Source: a virus
IMG/VR virus record: IMGVR_UViG_3300050821_003256
Location: 1 to 35,892 of that record
Length of the DNA: 35,892 bases
Reading direction: 5' to 3' (one strand)
Positions 20,898 to 34,772 of the stretch are shown here, piece after piece (the stretch's first letter is position 1; each line of letters opens with the position of its first letter). The notes beneath the pieces were generated by a model. That model was not told the DNA's origin. It saw nothing but the letters and a program-made list of their open reading frames with translations, and did not search any database. Position numbers and translations under genes: made by a program.

Positions 20898-22201
20898 CTC
20901 CTCCACTGGACCAACTTGCCGGCATTCGGGCCGGCTTTCAGATACCCGCGTCCAGCGATGAACAATTGCCGGTCGGGATCGCGGTCCATGTCAAGATCGG
21001 TAATCTTCGGTTTGCCGAGAAGCAAAAGCGCCGCTGAATTCGTCCTCGGTTGTGCCGCTCTCTGCACCGGCTGCGCTGCTTGCCTCGGCTCCGCGCCATT
21101 CGGTTTCGCCGCTGTCTGAAACGGCGTTACCCGCTTGTTCCATACATCGCGCACAATCCTAGCACGAAGCGAATCGACATTGGTCTTGATATATTTCGTG
21201 ATAGCCGAAATGTCACCCTTGGCCTTGAGCGCCGCGAGATTCGATTGGTACACCTTGTCGGAGCGCAGTGTTCGATCAATTTCCTGGATGACCGCGTCCC
21301 GCAAATCGGAAACGACGTTCTCGCCGAGCTTCGCGCCTTTCGAGTGCTCGCTGATGGCCCGTTCGATGGTGCTTGAGAGATATGGCTGCACCTGCACGCC
21401 AATCTTTTCGAGGAGCAAGTTCGCGCGCTCCTCGGCCACCTTGCGGCTCCCGGCCTGAATCTCGGCCATCCGGGGATCGTTCTGCTGCGTCTGCCGCTTG
21501 TTTTCCTCCTCGACAAGTCCGCCCAGCCATCGCTGCACTTGCGCGATTTCCTGCTTTAGTTCCGGGCTTTCCACTCGATTTGCAAACCATGCGATGCGGT
21601 CAAGCGAATTGCCAAGCCCGGCGCTCACGATGGCCTTTACGAGATGCGGCTGCAGCGTCGAAGCGTAGGCTCGCGGGTCCGTGCGTTCGAGCGTGTCGAG
21701 AAACACGGGCGCGGCCTTGATGAATCCGTCCTTGCTCTCGCTGACCCAGGCGTCGATCATCTTCGGATCGCCTTCGGCCGCCATGCGGTCGATGTCGGCA
21801 ACCTGATTCTGCGCCTGCCGAAGCGAGGCAATCCCTTCATCGCCGCCTAGAGCTTCGAATGTAGCCTTGGCGCGCTGCGCATCCTCGGGCGTCGGAAACG
21901 CTTCCGAATACTTCTCCGCCCGGAAGAACGAATCATTGAGTTGCCGAAGGATCGGCGCGCGGTCGGGATTCGCGTCCCTCAGTTCCCGCAACGTCTTCGT
22001 GACATCCCGAGGATTGAGCTTTCCGGGAGCCGCCTTGACTTCCGGCTCTTCCTTTTGCTCGGGAGCCGCCGCTTCCGGAGTTTCCGGCTGTTCCGGTTCC
22101 GGAACTTCGGTTACGTCGGTATCGACCGTTTCAACGTCAACCGGAGGCGCTTCCGCCACATCGCCGAGCGCTCCTGCCAGTGCTACTTCGCCATCAGCCA
22201 T
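20894..22201 (-). CDS. scaffolding protein, 435 aa
   Basis: The N-terminal 60 residues are acidic and Pro/Glu-rich (VTEVPEPEQPETPEAAAPEQ). The middle and C-terminal regions are predicted helical and charged (DVTKTLRELRDANPD ... ERANLLLEKIGVQVQPY ... AVIQEIDRTLRSDK), with the terminal segment FIAGRGYLKAGPNAGKLVQW. This is the usual layout of phage scaffolds, and it lies between portal and capsid genes. The start overlaps the portal stop by 8 nt. It would direct procapsid assembly and leave, with the C-terminus contacting the shell. Confidence 0.85.
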   Translation of the reverse strand: MADGEVALAGALGDVAEAPPVDVETVDTDVTEVPEPEQPETPEAAAPEQKEEPEVKAAPGKLNPRDVTKTLRELRDANPDRAPILRQLNDSFFRAEKYSEAFPTPEDAQRAKATFEALGGDEGIASLRQAQNQVADIDRMAAEGDPKMIDAWVSESKDGFIKAAPVFLDTLERTDPRAYASTLQPHLVKAIVSAGLGNSLDRIAWFANRVESPELKQEIAQVQRWLGGLVEEENKRQTQQNDPRMAEIQAGSRKVAEERANLLLEKIGVQVQPYLSSTIERAISEHSKGAKLGENVVSDLRDAVIQEIDRTLRSDKVYQSNLAALKAKGDISAITKYIKTNVDSLRARIVRDVWNKRVTPFQTAAKPNGAEPRQAAQPVQRAAQPRTNSAALLLLGKPKITDLDMDRDPDRQLFIAGRGYLKAGPNAGKLVQWRR

Positions 22202-25200
22202 TCGTGTTGCTCCTCTCTGCTGCTATTTCCTGCGGGGCCGCCGGAAGTCCGCGCTTTGTCAGTTCCGCCGCCGCCGCCCGTGGAGGCATGTCCTTGATGT
22301 TGGCCGAAACGGACATCGGCTTTTGCGGTGCGGGCGGCACGTTGTTCTTCATCGCCGCGTCGTGTTCGAGCTTGTGCAGGCGCACATTCTGGTAGCCGTC
22401 GCGCTCTTCGGGCGTGCCGTTCTTGTACTTCCGGCCTTCGGCTGAATTGAGCCACCATGCGCAGCATGCCGACTCGGTGGCGCTGTCTTCGACTTGCGGG
22501 TCGATTTGCACGGAAGAGACCATGTCCGGCATCGCTTGAATCTGCTGGATTGCCTGATCGACGCCGGAAACAGCCGCCGGAGGAATCGCTTGCGGCGGAA
22601 CCGCTTTCGCCCCCGATACCACTTGGTCGATTTGCTGCTGCGCCTGAATCTTCTGCGGATTCGGAATCGGTGAAGACTTTAACAGGACTTCGAACTCACC
22701 AAGCTGCTTTTCCCACGAGTCGGCTTGCGGGATGATGAATTCTTCCATGCCGGCCGCGTCGTGCGCAATCTTCGCGTTCTGCGGAGACGAAAGCAGTTGC
22801 GCGAGATAAGGATTCGTGGCCGCTTCGGTGATGAGGCCCTGATACCGCGCCTGCCGCTGGTTCCACGATTCGGGAATGTCGTAACTCTCTTCGGGATAGC
22901 AGAGCACGTTCCCTTTCATGTCGGCGAGTTCGATTCGAACCGCTTCTCCCGGCTGCCCGGCCATGCGAATCGGTTCCTTGCGGCACTTCGCGGCAAGCTG
23001 CACGGCCTGCCGAAAGTAGTTGCACGTCGCCATCATAATCGCATGCCACGGAGTCGAGAGCCGCGCAAGCGCCTGATCCCTGGTCAAAGCCATTGCCACG
23101 CCCGAGGATGGATTGATCGTATCGACGTTCGATTGCGCCCCGAAAAGCGACGGAATGGCCCCGGAAAGAAGTTGTGGCAGGTCCGTCAACCACATCTGAA
23201 TCGCTTGCGGCATCGAAGCCTGGTGCGTCGGCGTCGGCTCGACGAATACCGATGTCTCAATCGGCTGCGTGAGGTTCGCTCCGGAACGCTTGACAAAGAT
23301 CGAATCCCCCGGCATTTGCGGCTGATCCTGTATCGCCTCCGGGTTGTACATGTCGAGATCGTAGATTCGATTCGGAATCGTTCGGATGAAGAAATCGTTC
23401 CAGAGATCGATCCAGTTGTTTACCCGCTTCTGCAAGGACAAGAGCTTCGAACACAGCGCCAGCCGGTTCATGCCTGAGCCGGGGAACGCTTGAACCGTCG
23501 TGCAGTGATCGTCCATGTTTTCGTTCCGGGCAAGCACCATCGCTTCCCCGGCCATGATCGCAAGACATCCGTTCGGGAAGTACTTAAACAGTTCGTCCCG
23601 AACGTCAGTGTCTTCGCACGACATGAAGTAACCGGGCCGCATCCACGTGCGCTGCACCGTGCAGTCCCGCACCATCGAATCGCCGGTTACGTAGGACGCT
23701 TCGAGCGCGAGGCAGGCATTGATCCGGGCAATGCGGTCGAGTTCGTTTTCTCCGGCGCCCGCCGAACCCGGTTTGATCTTGTCGGCGTATTCCGGGAACA
23801 TGCCCTTGACGAAGGCATAGTCGAATTCGCGGGAGACTTGCATCCACGGGAAGTCGGCTTGGCTCTGCGCGTTGATCGGGACTTTCGCTTCGAGCTTGCC
23901 GTACACTTCCGCTACTTCTTCGCCTCTCGGTTCCGATTCTTCCGTGGGCACTGCTCCGTGTTCGGCGGTGGTAGGGAAGACAGGCCGTATCGTAAATCCA
24001 CCGCCAGGAGCAGCAAAAATACCAGCAATTCCGCCAGGATCGACCAGATCAGTGGGTGGAACATATTCCTCTCCATGAATCGCCCGGAACGCCGAGGAAA
24101 TAACCGAATCGTGCGTCACAATCGCTGTGGGCTGCGCTGCGGTAGTCTGCAACTGATCAAGAATCGCTTCCTGTACCCGGCTGTCGAGATCGTTCTGCGA
24201 TTCGCCGCCTCCGGGCAGCGGTTCGTCCGGATTCTCGGAAGACTCTTCGAAGTCCTCTCCGACATCCTCAGAAGCTTGCCCTTCAAGGTCGCCAATATCA
24301 CGAGCCGCAAACCGATCATCCATCTCGACTGGAACGCCGGTAATCTGCGCAATCCGCTCGGCGCTTTCAACCGCCCTCGGCAGCGGCGAAGAGATGATCC
24401 GGCCAATGCTCTTGCCCTTGAGGTAGGAACCCGCATCCGAGGATTCCTGCTGGCCGTGCGGATCGAGTCCAACATCGCTTTGCCCGCGCGTGATGCCTTC
24501 TTCATTGCGCGGCGTCTCGCCGTGACGAACGAGATACAACAGCGCTTGCTCTTCGGCAGTTTCCGTTTCGGGATTGACCGGATTCAGTGGATCGAGGCTG
24601 CCGAATCTTTGCCGGTCGATGATGTGATCCGTGACAATGACCGAGCGCCCATCCGTGCGAAGGTAGTAGACCATCTGCTGCTGCAGCGCCAGAAGGTCAT
24701 TCGACCGGCCAAAGCACTTCGCATAGCGTGTGGCCGCTTCCTTCGCCGTTACGTCAATGTCGGATTCGGGATTCTTCGGCTCGAATCGAACACCGGGCAC
24801 ATCCCGCGTCAACGCGGCTGTGATGATCTCCCCATAGGTCGCGTAAATGTTCGTCTCATACCCGTAGAACTTGCCGCTCTTTTTCGAGGATGTCCGGTTG
24901 TAGTCCGTCGCAAAGGGCGGCAAAATCCAGCCGCCGCCGCGCCTCGGGAGCAAGTACTGGTACCCGCGATCAAATAGCCGCGCTTCCCAAGATTGTTCGA
25001 CTTCCCACCGACGCGCCGCTACGTCCTTGTTCCCAATCTCATCGACGAGGCGCTTGACTTCGTTCTTGGCCTTCTCGGAAAGATCGTCGAGGACGTTTTG
25101 CTGCGGCGAATACCAGAACGGCGAAAGATCGCCTGGCCGGAACGTGCGCGGCTTCGGCTTCTCGTCTGTGTCTGTTTTGACACTATCGGAGTCCGGATAG

Positions 25201-25250
25201 GGCTGCGGCTTCTGTGTGATGTCCTGGTTTCCGGTGTCGTCTTGGGCCAT
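22194..25250 (-). CDS. portal protein with inserted histidine-phosphatase domain, 1018 aa
   Basis: Portal homology is supported by position directly upstream of scaffold and capsid. Portal-type segments include SGKFYGYETNIYATYGEIITAA, RVNNWIDLWNDFFIRTIP, SIFVKRSGANL and RDQALARLSTPWHAIMMATC, with a long helical C-terminus. Inside it, residues about 237-425 form a complete histidine-phosphatase (PGAM-like) fold: LLYLVRHGETPRNEEG (Arg242, His243), SSPLPRAVESAE (Arg292), DDRFAARDIGDLEGQ (Glu323) and VTHDSVIS (His380). Portal sequence resumes at PRGEEVAEVYGKLEAKVPI. Without the insert the portal would be about 820 aa, a normal length. The enzyme would sit on the portal ring; its substrate is unknown. 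Frame and ends are intact, so this is not an assembly break. Confidence 0.85.
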   Translation of the reverse strand: MAQDDTGNQDITQKPQPYPDSDSVKTDTDEKPKPRTFRPGDLSPFWYSPQQNVLDDLSEKAKNEVKRLVDEIGNKDVAARRWEVEQSWEARLFDRGYQYLLPRRGGGWILPPFATDYNRTSSKKSGKFYGYETNIYATYGEIITAALTRDVPGVRFEPKNPESDIDVTAKEAATRYAKCFGRSNDLLALQQQMVYYLRTDGRSVIVTDHIIDRQRFGSLDPLNPVNPETETAEEQALLYLVRHGETPRNEEGITRGQSDVGLDPHGQQESSDAGSYLKGKSIGRIISSPLPRAVESAERIAQITGVPVEMDDRFAARDIGDLEGQASEDVGEDFEESSENPDEPLPGGGESQNDLDSRVQEAILDQLQTTAAQPTAIVTHDSVISSAFRAIHGEEYVPPTDLVDPGGIAGIFAAPGGGFTIRPVFPTTAEHGAVPTEESEPRGEEVAEVYGKLEAKVPINAQSQADFPWMQVSREFDYAFVKGMFPEYADKIKPGSAGAGENELDRIARINACLALEASYVTGDSMVRDCTVQRTWMRPGYFMSCEDTDVRDELFKYFPNGCLAIMAGEAMVLARNENMDDHCTTVQAFPGSGMNRLALCSKLLSLQKRVNNWIDLWNDFFIRTIPNRIYDLDMYNPEAIQDQPQMPGDSIFVKRSGANLTQPIETSVFVEPTPTHQASMPQAIQMWLTDLPQLLSGAIPSLFGAQSNVDTINPSSGVAMALTRDQALARLSTPWHAIMMATCNYFRQAVQLAAKCRKEPIRMAGQPGEAVRIELADMKGNVLCYPEESYDIPESWNQRQARYQGLITEAATNPYLAQLLSSPQNAKIAHDAAGMEEFIIPQADSWEKQLGEFEVLLKSSPIPNPQKIQAQQQIDQVVSGAKAVPPQAIPPAAVSGVDQAIQQIQAMPDMVSSVQIDPQVEDSATESACCAWWLNSAEGRKYKNGTPEERDGYQNVRLHKLEHDAAMKNNVPPAPQKPMSVSANIKDMPPRAAAAELTKRGLPAAPQEIAAERSNTNG
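23976..24542 (-). other. histidine-phosphatase domain inserted in the portal gene
   Basis: This segment codes for residues about 237-425 of the portal. His243 is encoded at 24522-24524 and His380 at 24111-24113, both checked on the bases. Codon use shifts here toward GGA and CCA triplets compared with flanking portal sequence, suggesting later acquisition. The domain is flanked by Glu/Pro-rich linkers (PVNPETETAEEQ and AVPTEESEPRGEE), a usual setting for a domain inserted in a surface loop. Confidence 0.85.
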
Positions 25251-25251
25251 G

Positions 25252-25341
25252 TTAGGCGATCTTCATTTCGTAATCCCGCCACATCCTCGAATAGTCGCTG
25301 GCCCTCAAGATGAATTCCGTGCCTTGCGCATCGAGGCCCAC
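25252..25341 (-). CDS. possible 29-aa peptide before the portal
   Basis: A GTG 1 nt after the upstream TAG opens GLDAQGTEFILRASDYSR, then MWRDYEMKIA, ending 1 nt before the portal ATG. It exactly fills the gap between two coupled genes. Similar LRASDxxxMxxDYE endings seem familiar from small phage proteins, but length and the lack of a ribosome site make this only a possibility. Confidence 0.35.
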   Translation of the reverse strand: MGLDAQGTEFILRASDYSRMWRDYEMKIA

Positions 25342-25342
25342 G

Positions 25343-25549
25343 CTACTGGAAGAACTTGCACCAGCCTCCGGGATTAACAATCGCTTTCCCGGAACGCTGG
25401 ATTCGAAGGCCGGACTTCTCTTGCTTCGCATCGGCAATGACGTGCGATTCATCGCACAGATGCGGCCAGGAATAATGCGTGCAGTCGTGACAATGATCCA
25501 TGCCCGAGGCGTGCGGTTCATATCCCGATTGAGACTCGTTGCTAGGCAC
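25343..25549 (-). CDS. small four-cysteine protein, Fe-S or zinc type, 68 aa
   Basis: Cys20-x2-Cys23, Cys32 and Cys64 (MDHCHDCTHYSWPHLC ... IVNPGGWCKFFQ) give four ligands, resembling the small Cys-rich, HiPIP-like proteins often encoded just before phage portals. The GTG at 25549 is chosen as the shortest start overlapping the previous gene; a TTG at 25576 is an alternative, and an ATG lies further in before Cys20. Whether it binds iron-sulphur or zinc cannot be read from sequence. Confidence 0.6.
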   Translation of the reverse strand: MPSNESQSGYEPHASGMDHCHDCTHYSWPHLCDESHVIADAKQEKSGLRIQRSGKAIVNPGGWCKFFQ

Positions 25550-25718
25550 GTTGCTGTTCGATTGCGCGGGCCACAAAGCCGCGCTTGCGTTTTGGCTTCT
25601 GGTTCTGCTTGTTCGCCGTGGCGTAAAATTCCCGCTTGCCCTTGTCGTCGCCGTAGCGGTCCTGCATGTCGCCCATGACCTGCTTGCCCTTGCCCTGGAA
25701 GTATGCGCTGATCGGCAT
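25542..25718 (-). CDS. small conserved-type phage protein before the portal, 58 aa
   Basis: The ATG overlaps the upstream TAA (TAATG). The product starts MPISAYFQGKGKQVMGDMQ and continues with DRYGDDKGKREFYATAN and a lysine-rich tail (QKPKRKRG). Small proteins with SYFxGxGxxVMxxM and xxFYATAN occur beside portal genes in many phages, so this is a real gene, although short. Function unknown; the basic tail could bind DNA. Confidence 0.7.
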   Translation of the reverse strand: MPISAYFQGKGKQVMGDMQDRYGDDKGKREFYATANKQNQKPKRKRGFVARAIEQQRA

Positions 25719-26128
25719 TAGATTGGCTCCTCCACTTCCCGGCTGTCCTCTTGCGCGACTCGCTCGTCTTCCTTCGGGCCTCGCGGCTGGCTGCGCGCGC
25801 GGGAATGCGTCTGCAACGCCGGCGGAGCTTCGATCCCGAGGAGTTCCCTGCCGAGGTCGTGCGCTCGATACGCTTCGGGATGCACCGACGTGTGCTTGAA
25901 TCCGTCCGCATGGATTGCGGTCAGGCGCGTTCTGCCGTTGCCGACCGATTCGCCTCGCTCGATGATGATTTTACTTGCGAGGCCATGCGCCCGAACCGCC
26001 TCCTCGTGCTGCGGTCCGCCGGGCGCGTCTTTCGTCTGGTCGTGGCCTTCTTCGGCCAGCGACTTGTCATAAGTGCGGCCCTGTAAGGGATGGGTGAAAT
26101 GCCTGCCGTCTTTCGCTATGTAGGCCAT
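25718..26128 (-). CDS. hypothetical His-rich protein, 136 aa
   Basis: MAYIAKDGRHFTHPLQGRTY, then a polar His/Gly/Glu-rich stretch and AHGLASKIIIERGESVGNGR, IHADGFKHTSVHPEAYRAHD, and a disordered acidic/basic C-terminus. The gene lies between the DUF7448 protein and the coupled small genes upstream of the portal, with AGAAAGA as a weak ribosome site. The fold appears to be a small beta hairpin repeated in the middle. No function assigned. Confidence 0.65.
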   Translation of the reverse strand: MAYIAKDGRHFTHPLQGRTYDKSLAEEGHDQTKDAPGGPQHEEAVRAHGLASKIIIERGESVGNGRTRLTAIHADGFKHTSVHPEAYRAHDLGRELLGIEAPPALQTHSRARSQPRGPKEDERVAQEDSREVEEPI

Positions 26129-26136
26129 GCGTCTTT

Positions 26137-26529
26137 CTACGTAATCCTCTCAAAGCTTGCTGATTCAGAATAATAGCCGTTAGATTTTCCGTACCAACGA
26201 ATAACAACAGTTCCCTTAACGGTTCCGATGCGATAAAACGTCCAAATGAACGAATCGTCATCGCCTCCCAAAGCCGGGCGGTTGTGGTCTTCTTCGCTTC
26301 CATTAGCTTCTGCACGCACTATTGGAGAACCAATCAAATCGTTCAAATTTCCGCAAATATCTTCGATGTAGCACTCGGCACAACAGTCTGCGTTATAGAG
26401 CATCGCGTATTCTTCGTTATCGGATACGGTGAAGCGAATAGCGTCGCTGTCGCCTATACCGGAGTCAACTTTTTCAACGCGGGTGAAAGTTTTTCCGATC
26501 ATACTTTCGAATGGAACATCTATCCCCAT
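26137..26529 (-). CDS. DUF7448-like protein, 130 aa
   Basis: The start overlaps the previous TAA (TAATG). The sequence has the DUF7448 pattern: MIGKTFTRVEKV, IRFTVSDNEEYAMLYNADCC, YIEDICGNLNDLIGSPI, FIWTFYRIGTVKGTVVIRWYG and SNGYYSESASF. This family is widespread in phages and some plasmids; its role is unknown. Bases here are visibly more AT-rich than in the flanking late genes, pointing to later acquisition. Confidence 0.85.
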   Translation of the reverse strand: MGIDVPFESMIGKTFTRVEKVDSGIGDSDAIRFTVSDNEEYAMLYNADCCAECYIEDICGNLNDLIGSPIVRAEANGSEEDHNRPALGGDDDSFIWTFYRIGTVKGTVVIRWYGKSNGYYSESASFERIT

Positions 26530-26771
26530 TACCGAACCCGCTCCCAATCGACTTGCTCGGCCTGCGCTTTCGTCAGGCCGTAAGCCCTGCCCAGCGTTTC
26601 ATCTTCCGCCGCTTGCCGATGCTGCACCTTCGTCTGCGCGACTCGCATGGCGTTCACGTCCAGCCGAAGATTCGCCATCTCAGCCTGCATCGCTGCGAGT
26701 TTGGAATCAACTGCCTTCATGCGTTCGACCGCTTCGTGAAACTCGGTGAGGAACGCTTTGAGACGCTTCAT
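26529..26771 (-). CDS. small coiled-coil protein after terminase, 80 aa
   Basis: The start at 26771 overlaps the terminase TGA (ATGA). MKRLKAFLTEFHEAVERM and KLAAMQAEMANLRLDVNAMRV are amphipathic helices with heptads, followed by GLTKAQAEQVDW. Likely a dimeric coiled-coil; it could modulate the terminase or portal. No family recognised. Confidence 0.7.
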   Translation of the reverse strand: MKRLKAFLTEFHEAVERMKAVDSKLAAMQAEMANLRLDVNAMRVAQTKVQHRQAAEDETLGRAYGLTKAQAEQVDWERVR

Positions 26772-28300
26772 CCCATCTCCCACGGCATCCGAACTTCCCG
26801 ATGCACGCGCACCATCGATCCGGACTTCGGCAAGTTCTTCGTCAAGTACTGCCAGCGCATCAGCTTGTCGGGAATCGTCTCGCCAATCTCGCGCACAATG
26901 TCTTCCTTCGGCCGGGTCATCGGACCGAGGACCGACAGCGTGCCGTGCTTCAGCGCATCGAACAGATCATCCTCGATGCCCGACGTTTTGGCAACGTCTT
27001 CGAGTTCCTTTTCGTCACGAGCGAGAAGCGGAATCGCTCGAATCAGTTCCGTGCAGTTCGAGGTGATGAACAAATCCCCGGTAGCGAATGAGTTCCGGAT
27101 AAGAGTTGCGCCGTCGATCCGCTCTTGGTGGCTCGCCGAGCCTGCCGCTTTCGTGCATTCCGGCAATCCGAGCGCCCTGAACGCCCGAGAGAGTTCTGCC
27201 GCAACCGTCTGATCCGGGCGCGGGCTTGACCTTCGAGCAAACAGTTCATGGCTGATGAACGTGTGCTGCATGCGCTTCAATTCATCCGGGCCATTTGGAT
27301 ATGCCGGGTAGCCGTTGAACCCTTCTTTCACTACTTTCGCCGCCGCGTCGATGTCCGTTTCGTTGAACGCCATTTCCCGATAACACACAACCGCGAGCTT
27401 CCGCGTGCCGTCCATCTGCCGAACAAGCGCCCGCGTGAACCACAGTACCACCGTGAAGTGCGCAATGCCCCAATCAATTCCCGACCAGCACGGCTGCCAC
27501 GGCTGCCACATGACTCGTGCCTGGTCGGTCCCGAGGTCGATCACATGCGCGTCGCGGCTGAAGGTCGAATAGTATGATCCTGACAGCGAGTTCAAATCGC
27601 CGTAGAGCATCCGTTGCCGAAGGCCGGGAGAGAGCAGGTTCAGGCGATTCAGGTAGTCCGGGTCTTTCTCCTTCAGGAATGGGTTATCGTCCGCCGTCGA
27701 GTGCCGGAACGCGTAATCCGCCGGATCGTAGTTCGGATTCTTGCCCATCTCGACAATCGGCTGCTTGTCGATGAACAGACTCTTGATCCAGCCGTAACCG
27801 ATGCCGTAAGGGTTTGTCGCAAGCGCCATCGTCGGCTTTGGGCCTTGCACCCGGTTGCGATTCGAACCTTGCAGGAAGTCCCACACCTTGAACGGGAACT
27901 CGCCGCCTTCATCGAGGCCGATGAAGCTGAAGCTCGAAGACAGATATTGGTTCAAGTCGCTTGTTTGCAAGTTTTCGCAGTGTCCAAAGAACAAGAGCGA
28001 TCCGTTCCAGAAGGTCGCAATGTGATCCGAGGCGTTGTACTTGTAAAGTTCCGCAGGAATCTCCGTTCGCAGGTCTTGAATGAGCCCCTTGGAAAGCTCC
28101 TTGAAGTCCTTGCGAAGCAGGAGAACGTGACAACCCGCGAACGGCACAATGTATTTCCAGACTCCTTCACCCAAGAGAAAAATCGACTTGCCCGATCCGC
28201 GCCCTCCGATGGCAGCTCGAAACCGCGCCGGATCGCTGTGCAGCTCTTCCTGCCATTTGGCTGTGGCGTAGAGAACTCGTCCATCGCCGTCTTTAATCAT
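26768..28300 (-). CDS. terminase large subunit
   Basis: Counting from the ATG at 28300, the Walker A is GGRGSGKS at 32-39, the Walker B with acidic pair is FSFIGLDE at 124-131 (followed by GG), and a coupling motif ALATNP lies at 159-164. The nuclease has Asp276 in GIDWG. This is the DNA-packaging motor's ATPase and nuclease. The start is uncertain: 28300 overlaps the small-subunit stop by 8 nt, as elsewhere in this genome, while an in-frame ATG at 28375 would overlap it by 83 nt. Confidence 0.93.
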   Translation of the reverse strand: MIKDGDGRVLYATAKWQEELHSDPARFRAAIGGRGSGKSIFLLGEGVWKYIVPFAGCHVLLLRKDFKELSKGLIQDLRTEIPAELYKYNASDHIATFWNGSLLFFGHCENLQTSDLNQYLSSSFSFIGLDEGGEFPFKVWDFLQGSNRNRVQGPKPTMALATNPYGIGYGWIKSLFIDKQPIVEMGKNPNYDPADYAFRHSTADDNPFLKEKDPDYLNRLNLLSPGLRQRMLYGDLNSLSGSYYSTFSRDAHVIDLGTDQARVMWQPWQPCWSGIDWGIAHFTVVLWFTRALVRQMDGTRKLAVVCYREMAFNETDIDAAAKVVKEGFNGYPAYPNGPDELKRMQHTFISHELFARRSSPRPDQTVAAELSRAFRALGLPECTKAAGSASHQERIDGATLIRNSFATGDLFITSNCTELIRAIPLLARDEKELEDVAKTSGIEDDLFDALKHGTLSVLGPMTRPKEDIVREIGETIPDKLMRWQYLTKNLPKSGSMVRVHREVRMPWEMG

Positions 28301-28550
28301 CCGCCACTTGATAGACGATTTTGAAGGGTTCTCCATTGGCGTTTGCATGCGTGTTCGGCTGTTCGGCTTTGCCATACGCTCGATCCGTGAGGTACTTCAG
28401 CGCGTCGAGAACGATTCGCTCATCTTTCGAGTCGAGCAGCTTGGCCCATATCCTCGATTGGTTCTTTTCCTTGAGGATTTCCATTGCAAACTGCTGCCCT
28501 CGCTGCCGGGCAGCGCGTTGCATGTCGGTCTGTGGCCGTGGATTCGGCAC
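28293..28550 (-). CDS. terminase small subunit, 85 aa
   Basis: The GTG start has GAGG 7 nt upstream and directly follows the TAA of the glycosyltransferase gene. A helical domain (GQQFAMEILKEKNQSRIWAK) with DALKYLTDRAYGK and a C-terminal EPFKIVYQV is the usual pattern of small terminases of this class. Shorter than most (85 aa), it lacks a clear separate N-terminal DNA-binding domain. It overlaps TerL. Confidence 0.75.
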   Translation of the reverse strand: MPNPRPQTDMQRAARQRGQQFAMEILKEKNQSRIWAKLLDSKDERIVLDALKYLTDRAYGKAEQPNTHANANGEPFKIVYQVADD

Positions 28551-29270
28551 TTACGTCCTCGCGCTCGCATAAATCGGTGAATCGACACAGATGATCCCGT
28601 CGCAGTGCCGGCCGCACGTGCAACGTGCCCAGCGCCCCGAACGGACTCGGTTGATGATCCCGAGACGGTATGGATCGCAATAGTCGAACTCGTCATGCTT
28701 TACCGCCCGCCAGATGTAGTGGTACATCACCCTCGGAATGTAGTGCTCGGTCTTCACGATTCCGAGATGCCGGAGTTTGGCCGCCCAGCGGTGATCCTCG
28801 CCGAAACCGCCGTCGAATTCCGCGCGCAGCGCCAGTTCCCGGCGCATCGGATTGACGTGGCTGATGTCCCGGAAGAACTTCATGCCCTCGCGCGACCAGT
28901 CCGGATGCCGAAGCGAGTGATCCGTCTCCCCGTATTCCTGATACCGAAGATGCTGGCACCAGCACTGCAACTGGTAGCCGATGTAATCGACGCCATCGAG
29001 AAGCGGCAGAATCGTGTCCACGAAGTCATGCGCCGGAAAGTCGTCGTCATCGAAGAACATCACGTACTCGGCCGTCGCCCGGCGTATCAGTGCGTTCCGG
29101 TTCTCGCCAAGGTCGAGTTTGTCGTTCCACATCCCGATCAGCAGTTCCACAGGCCGGCCGTTTGCATGATCCACCGGCCAGGGCGCAAGCTGCCGGTCAA
29201 ACTCCGACACGACCTGCTTCAGCATCTCATGCCGGCCGGGCTGCGTCAGAACCATTAGCTGCAGTTTCAT
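28551..29270 (-). CDS. GT-A type glycosyltransferase with Cys-rich C-terminus, 239 aa
   Basis: A GT2-like N-terminus (VELLIGMWNDKLDLGENRN, ATAEYVMFFDDDDFPAHDF, the DDDD at 74-77 supplying the metal site) and GGFGEDHRWAAKLR near the acceptor side are visible. The last 25 residues have ARCTCGRHCDGIICV, four cysteines that look like an added metal site. The start overlaps the methyltransferase stop (ATGA). The substrate is unknown. Confidence 0.85.
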   Translation of the reverse strand: MKLQLMVLTQPGRHEMLKQVVSEFDRQLAPWPVDHANGRPVELLIGMWNDKLDLGENRNALIRRATAEYVMFFDDDDFPAHDFVDTILPLLDGVDYIGYQLQCWCQHLRYQEYGETDHSLRHPDWSREGMKFFRDISHVNPMRRELALRAEFDGGFGEDHRWAAKLRHLGIVKTEHYIPRVMYHYIWRAVKHDEFDYCDPYRLGIINRVRSGRWARCTCGRHCDGIICVDSPIYASART

Positions 29271-29758
29271 CGAAGAATCAACATCCCCTGTTTCGGGCCA
29301 ATCTCTACATCCTCGATCACATACACGCCGCCCGGTGCGAGAAGCGGCAAAAACACTGTCGCGGTCAATGACTGATCGCCCGGTATGTGCGAACCGTCGT
29401 CCACAATCAAATCAAAGGCTCCACCGATCTTCGCGGCGACGGCGCGCAAACTCGCTTCATCGGACTGGTCGCACCAGAAGGATTTGAGCCGGCCGTCGTT
29501 GATGAGCGTGTCCTGCCGGATGTCGAGGCCGTACACTTCCGCCTCCGGGAAGCATTCCGCCCACATTCGGAGGCTCGCGCCCGCTTTCTGCTCGTTGTGG
29601 AACAGGTGATCGTACCCAATCCCGATCTCAAGAATGCGTCGAATGTCCTTCCCGGCAAGGATGGCTTCATAGGTCGGAATGTAGTCATGCGAAAGCGGGT
29701 TCTCCGGATCGCGCACCTTGTCGGTTCTATACTTGCGCGCGAGTTCGGCAAGATTCAT
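29267..29758 (-). CDS. class I SAM-dependent methyltransferase (macrocin/demethylmacrocin O-MT-like), 163 aa
   Basis: From the ATG at 29758 the protein has NLAELARKYRTDK, a SAM-binding ILEIGIGYD (43-50), VYGLDIRQD (76-83) and FDLIVDDGSH (116-124), with a later GGVYVIED. This is the fold of O-methyltransferases of sugar and antibiotic pathways. Its start lies inside the FkbM gene (32-nt overlap). It probably methylates a glycan or nucleotide-sugar made by the neighbouring glycosyltransferases. Confidence 0.8.
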   Translation of the reverse strand: MNLAELARKYRTDKVRDPENPLSHDYIPTYEAILAGKDIRRILEIGIGYDHLFHNEQKAGASLRMWAECFPEAEVYGLDIRQDTLINDGRLKSFWCDQSDEASLRAVAAKIGGAFDLIVDDGSHIPGDQSLTATVFLPLLAPGGVYVIEDVEIGPKQGMLILR

Positions 29759-30341
29759 GGACGAGCACCAGGTTCTCGTTCGATTTGTAGGCCGAGTCGA
29801 AGCCCGCGCCCTTTGCCAGTAGTGCCAACTCCTCGTCTCGGAAGTCGTATTCCACAATGAAGACTTTCGGCTTCGGAATCGACAATGTAAACCAGTGCGC
29901 GAATATCTCGCTGCTCGTTCCTTCGGTGTCGATGCTCACAAGATCGAGACTCCGGAGGGACGGAAGATTCAACAGGTCGGGAATCGTGACCTGCGCGACG
30001 TAGTACGGTTCCTGAAACGCCGCCGCGCTTTCCCATACTTCCCGATGCTTCTCCGAAGTCGTCGATACCGCATCAGGACTCTCCCAGAACTTGACGAGGC
30101 CGCGAACGCAGCCCACCGCCGCATGCACGAGCTGAATCCGGGGATTGTCCGCATATCGACGGCGCAAGGCCGTGAATGCGTTCATGCTCGGCTCGACCAG
30201 CACCCCCGACCAGCCGCGATCCGCAAGCGCCGCCGTATTCGAGAAGGTCTTGCCGTCGAACGCGCCAATGTCGAGAAAGACGCCCGGCCCGTCGCCGACC
30301 GCTTCGAGGATGTACTGCTCTTCGTCATTCTGCGAATACAT
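29727..30341 (-). CDS. FkbM-family methyltransferase, 204 aa
   Basis: The N-terminus reads MYSQNDEEQYILEAVGDGPG then VFLDIGAFDGKTFSNT (SAM motif), GWSGVLVEPSM and SLDLVSIDTEG, all FkbM-type signatures. The ATG at 30341 is preferred; GGAGG lies 13 nt upstream, and a TTG at 30371 is a less likely longer start. FkbM enzymes O-methylate sugars. The genes are coupled tightly, implying one pathway. Confidence 0.85.
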   Translation of the reverse strand: MYSQNDEEQYILEAVGDGPGVFLDIGAFDGKTFSNTAALADRGWSGVLVEPSMNAFTALRRRYADNPRIQLVHAAVGCVRGLVKFWESPDAVSTTSEKHREVWESAAAFQEPYYVAQVTIPDLLNLPSLRSLDLVSIDTEGTSSEIFAHWFTLSIPKPKVFIVEYDFRDEELALLAKGAGFDSAYKSNENLVLVHESCRTRAQV

Positions 30342-31029
30342 TCGTGAGTGTGTTGCCTCCATCGGAAACAAGAATCGAAGTGTCTGCGCCCGGCGCGTAG
30401 GAGAAGATGTCCGGACAGTCAGTGAGCTTTAACCCGAGATTGTGCGCCACAACGCTGAGAATCGTCTGATCGTGCCGGTGTCCAAGCACATCAATCGGTC
30501 CGCAATGCGTCTCCGGCGCGTTCTTCCACGGACCGCAGATCGCTTCCGTGTCGCACAGCCGGAAGTATTCCGAAATGAGCATTTGCCCGACCGGGTGCGC
30601 CACGTTGATCCCGAACGCCGACGCAACGACGTGCGGAATGTCTTTGTTGAGCCTTCGAGCCTGATTCAACGACAGATCGGGGAAAAGCACCTTGTAGGCG
30701 TCGGTCGCTGTCCATTCGTAATTGTTCCAGCCGTTCCGGGCAATCCAGTAGCCATCCTTCTCGATGCGGTCCCACAGCGGCTTCATGCTTCGCACCGGAA
30801 CAATCGGCGCATCGCACCACAAAAGCAAATCATTCCCTGCGGCCCCGGCACTGACAAGCGCCCGGCACTTGAACCCATAAGGCCGGTCCTGATGGCTCGG
30901 CCAGCCAGTCGGTATCTCTCGCCAGGCGCAGATGCCGCACTCCGGATCGACTCGGTTCACGGCGGCAATCAGCCGGTCCTGAAAGGTCACGTACCAGTCG
31001 GTCGCTACAGTGACGACAGCGCGCTTCAT
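30325..31029 (-). CDS. glycosyltransferase-like protein, 234 aa
   Basis: The start is fixed by an ATGA overlap at 31029. The sequence MKRAVVTVATDWYV, DLLLWCDAPIVPVRSMKPLWD (an acidic CDA site in place of DxD), YWIARNGWNNYEWTATDAY and a C-terminal DVLGHRHDQTILSVVAHN look like a nucleotide-sugar-dependent enzyme of the GT-A type. The exact family is not recognised. It is in the cassette of two clear GT2-type enzymes and two methyltransferases. Confidence 0.65.
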   Translation of the reverse strand: MKRAVVTVATDWYVTFQDRLIAAVNRVDPECGICAWREIPTGWPSHQDRPYGFKCRALVSAGAAGNDLLLWCDAPIVPVRSMKPLWDRIEKDGYWIARNGWNNYEWTATDAYKVLFPDLSLNQARRLNKDIPHVVASAFGINVAHPVGQMLISEYFRLCDTEAICGPWKNAPETHCGPIDVLGHRHDQTILSVVAHNLGLKLTDCPDIFSYAPGADTSILVSDGGNTLTNVFAE

Positions 31030-31733
31030 GCCGATTGCGCCATCTCCGGAATCAGCCACGTCGCATCCATTGCCGCCCGAAGCTTCTCCCTATCATCGAA
31101 CCGGTCGTTGAAGTGCTGCAGGTAGACTCGCGCCGCGTCTTGCTTCGCCATCCGAGCGAACTTCTCCCGATAGTTTTCGTCCATCTCGCCTTTGGACCAG
31201 TAGGGATGCATGTGCTCGATGAGGATCGGCACGTGCTGGCTTCTCCCGAGGTCCTTGGCAATGTCGTTGATCCACGTGTCGGCGAAGTCGCCCTCGAACC
31301 ATTCACCTGTCATTCGCCCCGCCACTTCCACCCAGCGCCGCGATACAAACGGAAGTGTGGCGAAATGAGTCAGATCGGCCGGAGAGCCGTCATCCCCATG
31401 CACCATCAGAATCTTGTCCGGACACGCATCGAAAGCCTCGGTCACAATCTTGTCCCAACCGGGCGTTCGGAAGATCGTGTCGTCTCCGCACATCATCAGG
31501 ATGTCACCGTGCGCGGCGCGCGCCAGCACATTCCAGTAGTTGGAGAACGTAAGGCGGGGTCCCTCGATCATAACCTCGGCAATATCCAGAATCTGTTCCA
31601 GCGACTCATCATCCTCGTCCTCGTCAACGTAGGTCACGATCTCAACCGGTGTGCTGGCTGTTCCACGAATCGATTCTGCCATGCGCCGAAATGTCGGCAC
31701 TCGCTTGCGTGTCGGTACTAGGACTGAAATCAT
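31026..31733 (-). CDS. GT2-family glycosyltransferase, 235 aa
   Basis: The N-terminus is MISVLVPTRKRVPTFRRMAE, the nucleotide-sugar-binding start of GT2. A later HGDILMMCGDDTIF (DD at 84-85) is the metal site, followed by acceptor-side residues. The ATG overlaps the upstream stop (ATGA). It is the first gene of the cassette. Confidence 0.85.
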   Translation of the reverse strand: MISVLVPTRKRVPTFRRMAESIRGTASTPVEIVTYVDEDEDDESLEQILDIAEVMIEGPRLTFSNYWNVLARAAHGDILMMCGDDTIFRTPGWDKIVTEAFDACPDKILMVHGDDGSPADLTHFATLPFVSRRWVEVAGRMTGEWFEGDFADTWINDIAKDLGRSQHVPILIEHMHPYWSKGEMDENYREKFARMAKQDAARVYLQHFNDRFDDREKLRAAMDATWLIPEMAQSA

Positions 31734-33812: not shown

Positions 33813-34030
33813 TGCCTGATTATCCGAAGCCTGAAATCGGAGACGTAGTTCTGGTCGAATATGGTAGCGAGTGCTACGAAGCTCGCATACTGACTATCGC
33901 CACGGGCCGAACTTGGTCTGGAAATGAGAACCAGATGTATTACAAACTCAGGCGGATGTCTTTTTGGTCTCGACCTTGGGCTCCTCGTATCGAATGGCTC
34001 AATGAAACTCATATAAGGGACCATGCCTGA
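33812..34030 (+). CDS. small hypothetical protein, 72 aa
   Basis: GGAGA lies 7 nt before the ATG. MPDYPKPEIGDVVLVEYGSE, CYEARILTIA, YYKLRRMSFW and RPWAPRIEWLNE form a small SH3-like beta barrel. Function unknown. The stop overlaps the ERF gene by 8 nt. Confidence 0.65.
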   Translation: MPDYPKPEIGDVVLVEYGSECYEARILTIATGRTWSGNENQMYYKLRRMSFWSRPWAPRIEWLNETHIRDHA

Positions 34031-34772
34031 TTCAGAGGAACGTACCGCACCGATGGCCGAAACGCCGAAGCTCGAATGGTCGATGTCGCCTACGATTGGT
34101 AAACTCGTTGAGGCCATCTCCAAAGCTGCCTTGAACTTCGACCCCGTGCTCAAGGACTCCGAAAATCCGGCCTACAGGTCCAAATATGCCGACCTGCCGA
34201 CCGTCATCGACGCCACACGCAAGTATCTCGCAGCCGAAGGCGTGGCTGTGATCCAAATGCCCCATGCCGAGTTTGGACCCGACGACGCCAAAATGCTCAC
34301 GCTCACCACTATGCTCGCGCATTCCTCCGGCGAGTGGATGGCTTCCGATCTCACCCTGCCAGCCATGATGCGCGATCGATTCGACGCGCAATCCGTCGGT
34401 TCCGCAATTACCTACGCCCGGCGCTATGGATTGGCTGCCATGACCAATGTCGCTCAGGAAGATGACGATGGCAACCGCGCGGCTGGGATCGGATCGAAAG
34501 AAGCCGCTCAGGGTGTCGCCAAGCGCAAGATCAAGGAATCGACGGGCGCTGACGAGAACGAGCCCATTACCCTCGTGCCTTGGAAGGAAAACCAGCTCGC
34601 TGTCACCGGAAACTCGCTTGCCCTGCTGCGGGCCGAAATGACGGCAGAAGATCGGGAGAAAATGCACATCAAGTGGTCGGGAGCCGATAAAACATGGGTG
34701 CTGCCCGAGGCCGAAGGCAATATGTTTGCCTCTCTTGCTGAGGCTCATAAGTTCAAGGTGGTTTGGAAGTAA
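34023..34772 (+). CDS. erf: ERF-family single-strand annealing recombinase, 249 aa
   Basis: Residues about 24-150 have the ERF core: IGKLVEAISKAALNFDPVLK, NPAYRSKYADLPTVIDATRK, YLAAEGVAVIQMP, MLAHSSGEWMASDLTLPA and SVGSAITYARRYGLAAMTNV with an acidic QEDDDGN. ERF proteins anneal single strands in phage recombination, often helping to circularise DNA. The C-terminus is a separate charged domain. The start overlaps the previous gene by 8 nt. Confidence 0.9.
   Translation: MPDSEERTAPMAETPKLEWSMSPTIGKLVEAISKAALNFDPVLKDSENPAYRSKYADLPTVIDATRKYLAAEGVAVIQMPHAEFGPDDAKMLTLTTMLAHSSGEWMASDLTLPAMMRDRFDAQSVGSAITYARRYGLAAMTNVAQEDDDGNRAAGIGSKEAAQGVAKRKIKESTGADENEPITLVPWKENQLAVTGNSLALLRAEMTAEDREKMHIKWSGADKTWVLPEAEGNMFASLAEAHKFKVVWK

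Follow-up and report, generated by a model that had tools for sequence, protein, structure and literature searches.

Portal proteins are mostly viewed as channels and assembly nuclei, and those known form dodecamers that are held in place in the capsid. Portal-linked enzymes have also been described, comprising 2H, inorganic pyrophosphatase, PBECR, Nudix, ADP-ribosyltransferase, and lysozyme domains, most of them in two papers (PMC5512222; PMC9503650). Neither paper mentions the term 'histidine phosphatase', and a search of open papers for histidine phosphatase together with 'portal protein', with most subscription papers and preprints outside its scope, returned nothing relevant. The preliminary description of the locus analyzed here, which knew of no portal carrying this enzyme, agrees with these open papers, in which portals with other enzymes are described.

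The window, which is the whole 35,892-nucleotide stretch of the IMG/VR virus record IMGVR_UViG_3300050821_003256, contains on its minus strand an open reading frame (22194-25250) of 1018 amino acids with an ATG start and zero internal stops. Sequence searches of annotated phages, Pfam, and PHROGs gave no match that identified a portal; in Pfam and PHROG this applied both to the window protein and to the insert-free homologs L076, L084, L013, and L089, and the annotated phage collection returned matches to the phosphatase only. Because the sequence route to portal identity was empty, fold comparison was used instead. The AlphaFold2 model of the window protein, built with 33 aligned relatives (mean pLDDT 76.5, pTM 0.57), comprises a portal fold and a phosphatase fold in a single chain. 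Foldseek matched it to the portals of Pa223, SU10, N4, and Pan3 and also, across some 200 residues, to histidine phosphatases. VIA-align comparison with the portals of Pan3, GP4, PaP3, P22, SU10, N4, Sf6, and T7 gave Z values of 18-26, the best being Pan3 (Z 25.9, 382 residues within 57-789, rmsd 4.2), with P22 at Z 22.5, SU10 at Z 22.2, and T7 at Z 19.7. The portal matches cross the insert, extending from residue ~53 to ~789-839, which bears out the earlier view that portal-type sequence continues on both sides of it, and the insert-free homolog L084 returned an identical portal list. Removal of the insert would, as had been proposed, leave a portal of normal length, since full-length portals of the closest clade without the insert have 802-913 amino acids. 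The best 50 BFVD matches were portals and uncharacterized proteins of at most 842 residues, all shorter than the window protein and none with a sign of a comparable insert. Judged by its modeled fold and gene context, the window protein is a P22/SU10-like portal (Table 1).

Table 1. Portal gene, inserted domain, and neighboring terminase gene in the window
Feature	Position	Strand	Remarks
Portal N-terminal part, residues 1-232	24555..25250	-	aligns with insert-free L076-L090; fold matches from residue ~53; ends with a strand and short helix preceding the insert
Histidine-phosphatase insert, residues 237-429	23964..24542	-	PF00300 E 9.6e-35; VIA Z 18-19
Nucleophile motif R242-H243-G244	24519..24527	-	invariant 19/19
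R292, second phosphate-pocket arginine (SSPLPR)	24375..24377	-	invariant 19/19
Glu323, catalytic acid proposed earlier	24282..24284	-	not conserved: Ala in L001, L009, L070; not the PhoE acid position
H380, second histidine (THDSVI)	24111..24113	-	invariant 19/19
Portal remainder, residues 438-1018	22197..23939	-	starts at the strand after the insert; aligns with insert-free portals; fold matches to ~789-839
Terminase large subunit	26768..28375	-, upstream of portal	PF04466 E 3e-9, phrog_2 E 8e-32

The inserted domain is recognized by Pfam His_Phos_1 (residues 238-395) and by PHROG 12933 (E 9e-22), a family whose function is listed as unknown and which also matches the copies found in lambda- and Mu-type portals. 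Its model shows the alpha/beta/alpha fold of branch 1 of the histidine phosphatase superfamily, and residues 235-429 align with the PspA-type phosphoserine phosphatase 4ij6 (Z 19.4) and with PhoE 1h2e (Z 18.3, rmsd 3.2 over 183 residues), so that structure prediction and structural comparison confirm the fold first proposed from sequence motifs. The insert scored under the cut-off of every NCBIfam model that it matched, including SixA (TIGR00249, 22.7 bits against 74.5 bits) and CobC alpha-ribazole phosphatase (TIGR03162, 97.9 bits against 162.9 bits). An LRPW motif present in most stand-alone viral copies has been lost from the window copies.

The same insertion had been suggested as something to look for in metagenomic portals, and it was found at an identical place and in frame in three lineages besides the window virus, namely L001-L004 (near-identical contigs from four separate metagenomes), L009/L010, and L070. 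A selection test on L001-L004 revealed no synonymous changes between these contigs. An assembly artifact or chance fusion is hardly credible: a dip in GC3 within the insert of the window virus (0.57, compared with 0.72 and 0.73 in the flanks) could be taken to speak for it, but the insert is present in seven other contigs from the three lineages, L004 and L009 carry it without a GC3 dip, and no break of the frame marks its borders, which four other metagenome assemblies match; misassembly was therefore rejected. The change in codon use noted in the preliminary description holds for the window virus and not for L004 and L009. In the window virus, GC3 falls to about 0.38-0.43 near residues 360-450 (within 23925-24542), even though the clade has long carried the insert. 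A recent import, as judged by codon use, was likewise rejected, because the shift is confined to the window virus and L009 and L070 pair in the portal tree and the phosphatase tree alike, which indicates that portal and insert were inherited together.

In the nearest insert-free portals (L076-L090), '..FG..VPEDE' runs straight into 'PRGRE..VFGKLEHKVP'. The L084 model contains a low-confidence loop (residues 211-230) between a strand with a short helix (191-205) and a further strand (237-244), and the equivalent elements of the window model flank the phosphatase at 202-216 and 443-450; in the insert-free relatives, the loop at the insertion point is thus predicted to be disordered. We would place the insert-bearing loop in the portal wing, given its location ahead of the stem and clip and the presence of a beta-sandwich in the SU10 portal wing (PMC9509320). 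A large related portal clade (L011-L069) carries two CxxC motifs in the loop of the phosphatase site (residues ~175-290), which we read as a zinc ribbon and which gave weak Pfam zinc-ribbon matches. Given these modules, the site seems to accept different cargo, and the portal loop looks like a plug-in site.

The active site was assessed in an alignment of 19 viral phosphatase copies with 195 columns, 13 of which were invariant in all copies (R242, H243, G244, N249, R255, G266, R292, G320, G324, G349, E350, R358, and H380). The rough chance that R242, H243, R292, and H380 all fall among these columns is 1e-5, with columns taken as independent and relatedness ignored. The hallmarks reported earlier were found where they had been placed as regards the RHG motif (242-244), SSPLPRA with R292, and TH with H380, whereas Glu323 had been misassigned as the catalytic acid and was rejected in this role, being Ala in the other inserted copies and off the PhoE acid position. 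A glutamate is the proton donor in PhoE and HFP. Alignment with PhoE (PhoE 'RLREIHLGDWEG', window 'RFAARDIGDLEG') places an alanine at the acid position in the window protein, and in every viral copy the residue at the position of PhoE E83 is Ala, Ser, Pro, or Thr. The four universal residues of the superfamily and the pocket asparagine (PMC12051542) are all within the 13 invariant columns. In our view, the conservation of the putative pocket and nucleophile residues speaks for catalysis or, failing that, for phosphate binding; the missing canonical acid could mean weak or no turnover.

Whether the domain still serves as a useful enzyme has to be weighed here. It might instead bind phosphate or nucleotides, or be a purely structural plug of the portal, as would fit the replaced general acid, the acceptance of non-enzymatic, zinc-ribbon-like CxxC inserts by the same loop in another large clade, and the divergence of the insert, which is faster than that of the flanks (41-42% against 56-60% identity in aligned pairs of insert-bearing portals). 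We consider this unlikely, as the phosphate-pocket and nucleophile residues are nevertheless invariant in 19 copies of different architectures, a stand-alone copy provided in trans is hard to square with a structural plug, and proton donors are reported to differ across the superfamily (PMC12051542).

Such stand-alone copies were located by scanning all loci with an HMM built from the viral phosphatases, and most members of the sister clade encode one beside the portal. In L076 and L077, the portal stop is followed by the phosphatase start with a spacing of 0 bp; the two overlap by 1 bp in L078 and by 4 bp in L085, L126, and L127, and in L080 the phosphatase gene is found some 0.7 kb further downstream. 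L126 and L127 had been fetched via the phosphatase, and their neighboring 826-aa protein belongs to the window portal family (E 1.6e-138). Among 28 whole records, 13 contain the phosphatase, always as exactly one copy, which is inserted in five, adjacent to the portal or a short way downstream in seven, and upstream in one (L031). It is absent from the other 15, and the domain is thus accessory; some of these records are fragments, but the relatives without a phosphatase include L079, L084, and L089, which span 45-48 kb. The downstream phosphatases of L078 (7887-8717) and L080 (8500-9327) hold an inserted Cys-rich module (CxxC...C...CC), and a similar Cys-rich stretch precedes the phosphatase N-terminally in L099-L102.

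In the portal tree, the inserted portals form one clade (98/96), sister to the next-gene and phosphatase-free types (91/94). In the phosphatase tree, the inserted copies also form one clade (100/99), the placement of which is unresolved, and the next-gene copies form another (100/97), grouping with copies from SU10-type neighborhoods (90/94). That the insert arose when the next-gene phosphatase simply changed place is unsupported, because the next-gene copies go with the SU10-type ones and the inserted copies stand apart. Between one ancestral association and two acquisitions as the origin of the two arrangements, the trees lean toward two. The next-gene arrangement also bears on a role in defense, in which the insert would shield the portal from host sensors or the phosphatase would undo phosphorylation of the portal or terminase by defense kinases. 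Enzymes linked to packaging genes have been suggested to counter immunity directed at the portal or terminase (PMC9503650), but a separate phosphatase encoded by the next gene is unable to shield, and the literature searched yielded no phosphorylated portal, which makes this explanation very improbable.

The phosphatase is also associated with other portal classes. Searching viral contigs with the phosphatase sequence alone returned 24 contigs, and in 20 of them, by our count, a portal contains the phosphatase or has it close by (inserted in 7, joined to other portals in 2, and in the neighborhood in 11), near-copies being counted, so that these cases are not independent. L109 (4030-6696) combines a lambda-type portal (Phage_portal_2, E 5e-38) with His_Phos_1. 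In its relatives L148 and L149, 'NPVRS' leads directly to 'ISPEVLALIDQQGDG' with no phosphatase, and in L109 the phosphatase stands between equal flanks; relative to L148, it is an insertion near the portal C-terminus that leaves the flanks intact. L110 (4384-6525) encodes a Mu-type portal (Portal_Mu, E 9.5e-74) with His_Phos_1 appended beyond the end point of its relative L146, which is without phosphatase. In L120, the gene lies directly 3' of an SU10-type portal, in L122 one gene off, in L119 and L129 a few genes off, and in L125 between the terminase and a P22/SU10-type portal. The 743-aa gene adjoining the phosphatase in L118 had no portal match, the PseuP_222 phosphatase (one of four records of the annotated collection examined) is located among regulatory genes, and no portal was recognized in three unannotated fecal records with a phosphatase match. 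L114 (4528-12114, 2528 aa) and L115 (3208-9345, 2045 aa) contain histidine-phosphatase regions inside giant proteins, and HxTxxxG and HxTIAYL motifs resembling a 2H phosphoesterase were seen by eye in L114.

These arrangements also bear on a rival reading, according to which the phosphatase is an effector that travels in the head and is passed on to the next host. Such a role has been proposed for 2H, Nudix, InPase, and ADP-ribosyltransferase domains on MuF or portal proteins. Iyer and colleagues read portal-fused enzymes as injected (PMC5512222; PMC9503650), the placement of phosphatases inside proteins of >2000 aa in L114 and L115 resembles that in polyvalent proteins, and stand-alone copies within the head operon could be packaged. 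In the window clade, however, the domain is anchored at both ends, and its release would take two cuts and passage through the channel; we therefore hold this reading to be rather unlikely.

In our opinion, the domain is probably a working phosphatase of a virus-specific branch, tethered to the portal as its place of action and active late or in the virion, and not an injected effector. A P22/SU10-type portal subunit would carry the histidine phosphatase in a wing loop before the stem and clip, and a ring of ~12 subunits, the number expected from known portals, would present one phosphatase on each, with acidic linkers at both ends; as portals are dodecameric, a virion may hold about twelve phosphatase domains. 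The enzyme would retain the residues that bind phosphate and form phosphohistidine and would work without the usual glutamate proton donor. Tethering at both ends in an anchored ring makes injection into the next host unlikely, and with it the suggestion of the preliminary description that the phosphatase acts during entry. This favors a role either in the producing cell, while heads are assembled and packaged, or in the virion, and action on assembly partners, which the preliminary description also suggested, may be part of it; for the stand-alone copies, either place of action would be possible. Since in relatives the domain comes in trans, as the product of the next gene, or sits on unrelated portals, the link appears to be to the portal and not to one protein. 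Speculatively, the absence of the acid, together with reports of other phosphohydrolases on portals, would fit a substrate with a good leaving group, a phosphoanhydride or phosphoramidate such as a nucleotide-derived compound or phosphohistidine, better than an alkyl monoester. More tentatively, though still plausibly, the histidine phosphatase may be a recurrent working component of the portal vertex, joined to portals several times independently or encoded as a translationally coupled neighbor, and acting in assembly or the virion and not by injection.

Several observations concern the genome and its host. Of two scans of genome contigs, one found nothing and the other two portal fragments in metagenome-assembled genomes, both ending before the insert and one from a genome named Acidobacteria. 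Among 396 genomes of the phylum of Acidobacteria, one further portal of the family was found, with no phosphatase within 20 kb. Portals of the window family in metagenome-assembled genomes are represented by L116, L117, and L155 (G302 contig 158), one from Acidobacteria and one from the same phylum, a hint of an acidobacterial host for part of the portal family. Upstream of the terminase, the window contains a cluster (28551-31733) with glycosyltransferase matches at 28551-29270 (PHROG) and 31026-31733 (weak Pfam) and an FkbM methyltransferase at 29727-30371 (E 7e-12), which suggests sugar modification genes in this phage. An ERF-type single-strand annealing protein is encoded on the plus strand (34023-34772, E 6e-19). 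The gap of ~1.5 kb between portal and terminase (25251-26767) holds no convincing gene; an arginine-rich ORF of 219 aa (25252-25911) had zero matches.

Compared with branch 1 histidine phosphatases (PhoE 1h2e; 4ij6), the insert shares the fold, the RHG motif, the second arginine, the second histidine, and the pocket asparagine, but differs in having no glutamate at the PhoE acid position and in scoring below NCBIfam cut-offs. It matches the viral histidine phosphatases of PHROG 12933, from which the window copies differ by the lost LRPW motif, and a portal-linked role is suggested for this family. The window protein resembles portals of the P22/SU10/Pan3 type (8eao, 7z44, 9vyf) in its fold (~53-839, Z 21-26) and in the terminase large subunit upstream, but differs from them by having, in the loop that precedes stem and clip, a phosphatase of ~190 residues and by lacking a detectable Pfam or PHROG portal match. 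Like portal- and MuF-fused enzymes and polyvalent proteins, it has an enzyme domain in the portal polypeptide, among virion genes; it differs from those described (PMC5512222; PMC9503650) in the enzyme, in the insertion inside the portal, and in the in-trans alternative of the sister clade. Enzymes fused to portals are thus already known, and what the open papers searched did not yield is the histidine phosphatase, its position, and the alternation between cis and trans. An enzyme in the ring, its in-trans counterpart, and independent joins to unrelated portals would point to a phosphate-removal step at the portal vertex, and phage portals appear to have a recurrent, hitherto unnamed partner in a phosphate-removing enzyme.
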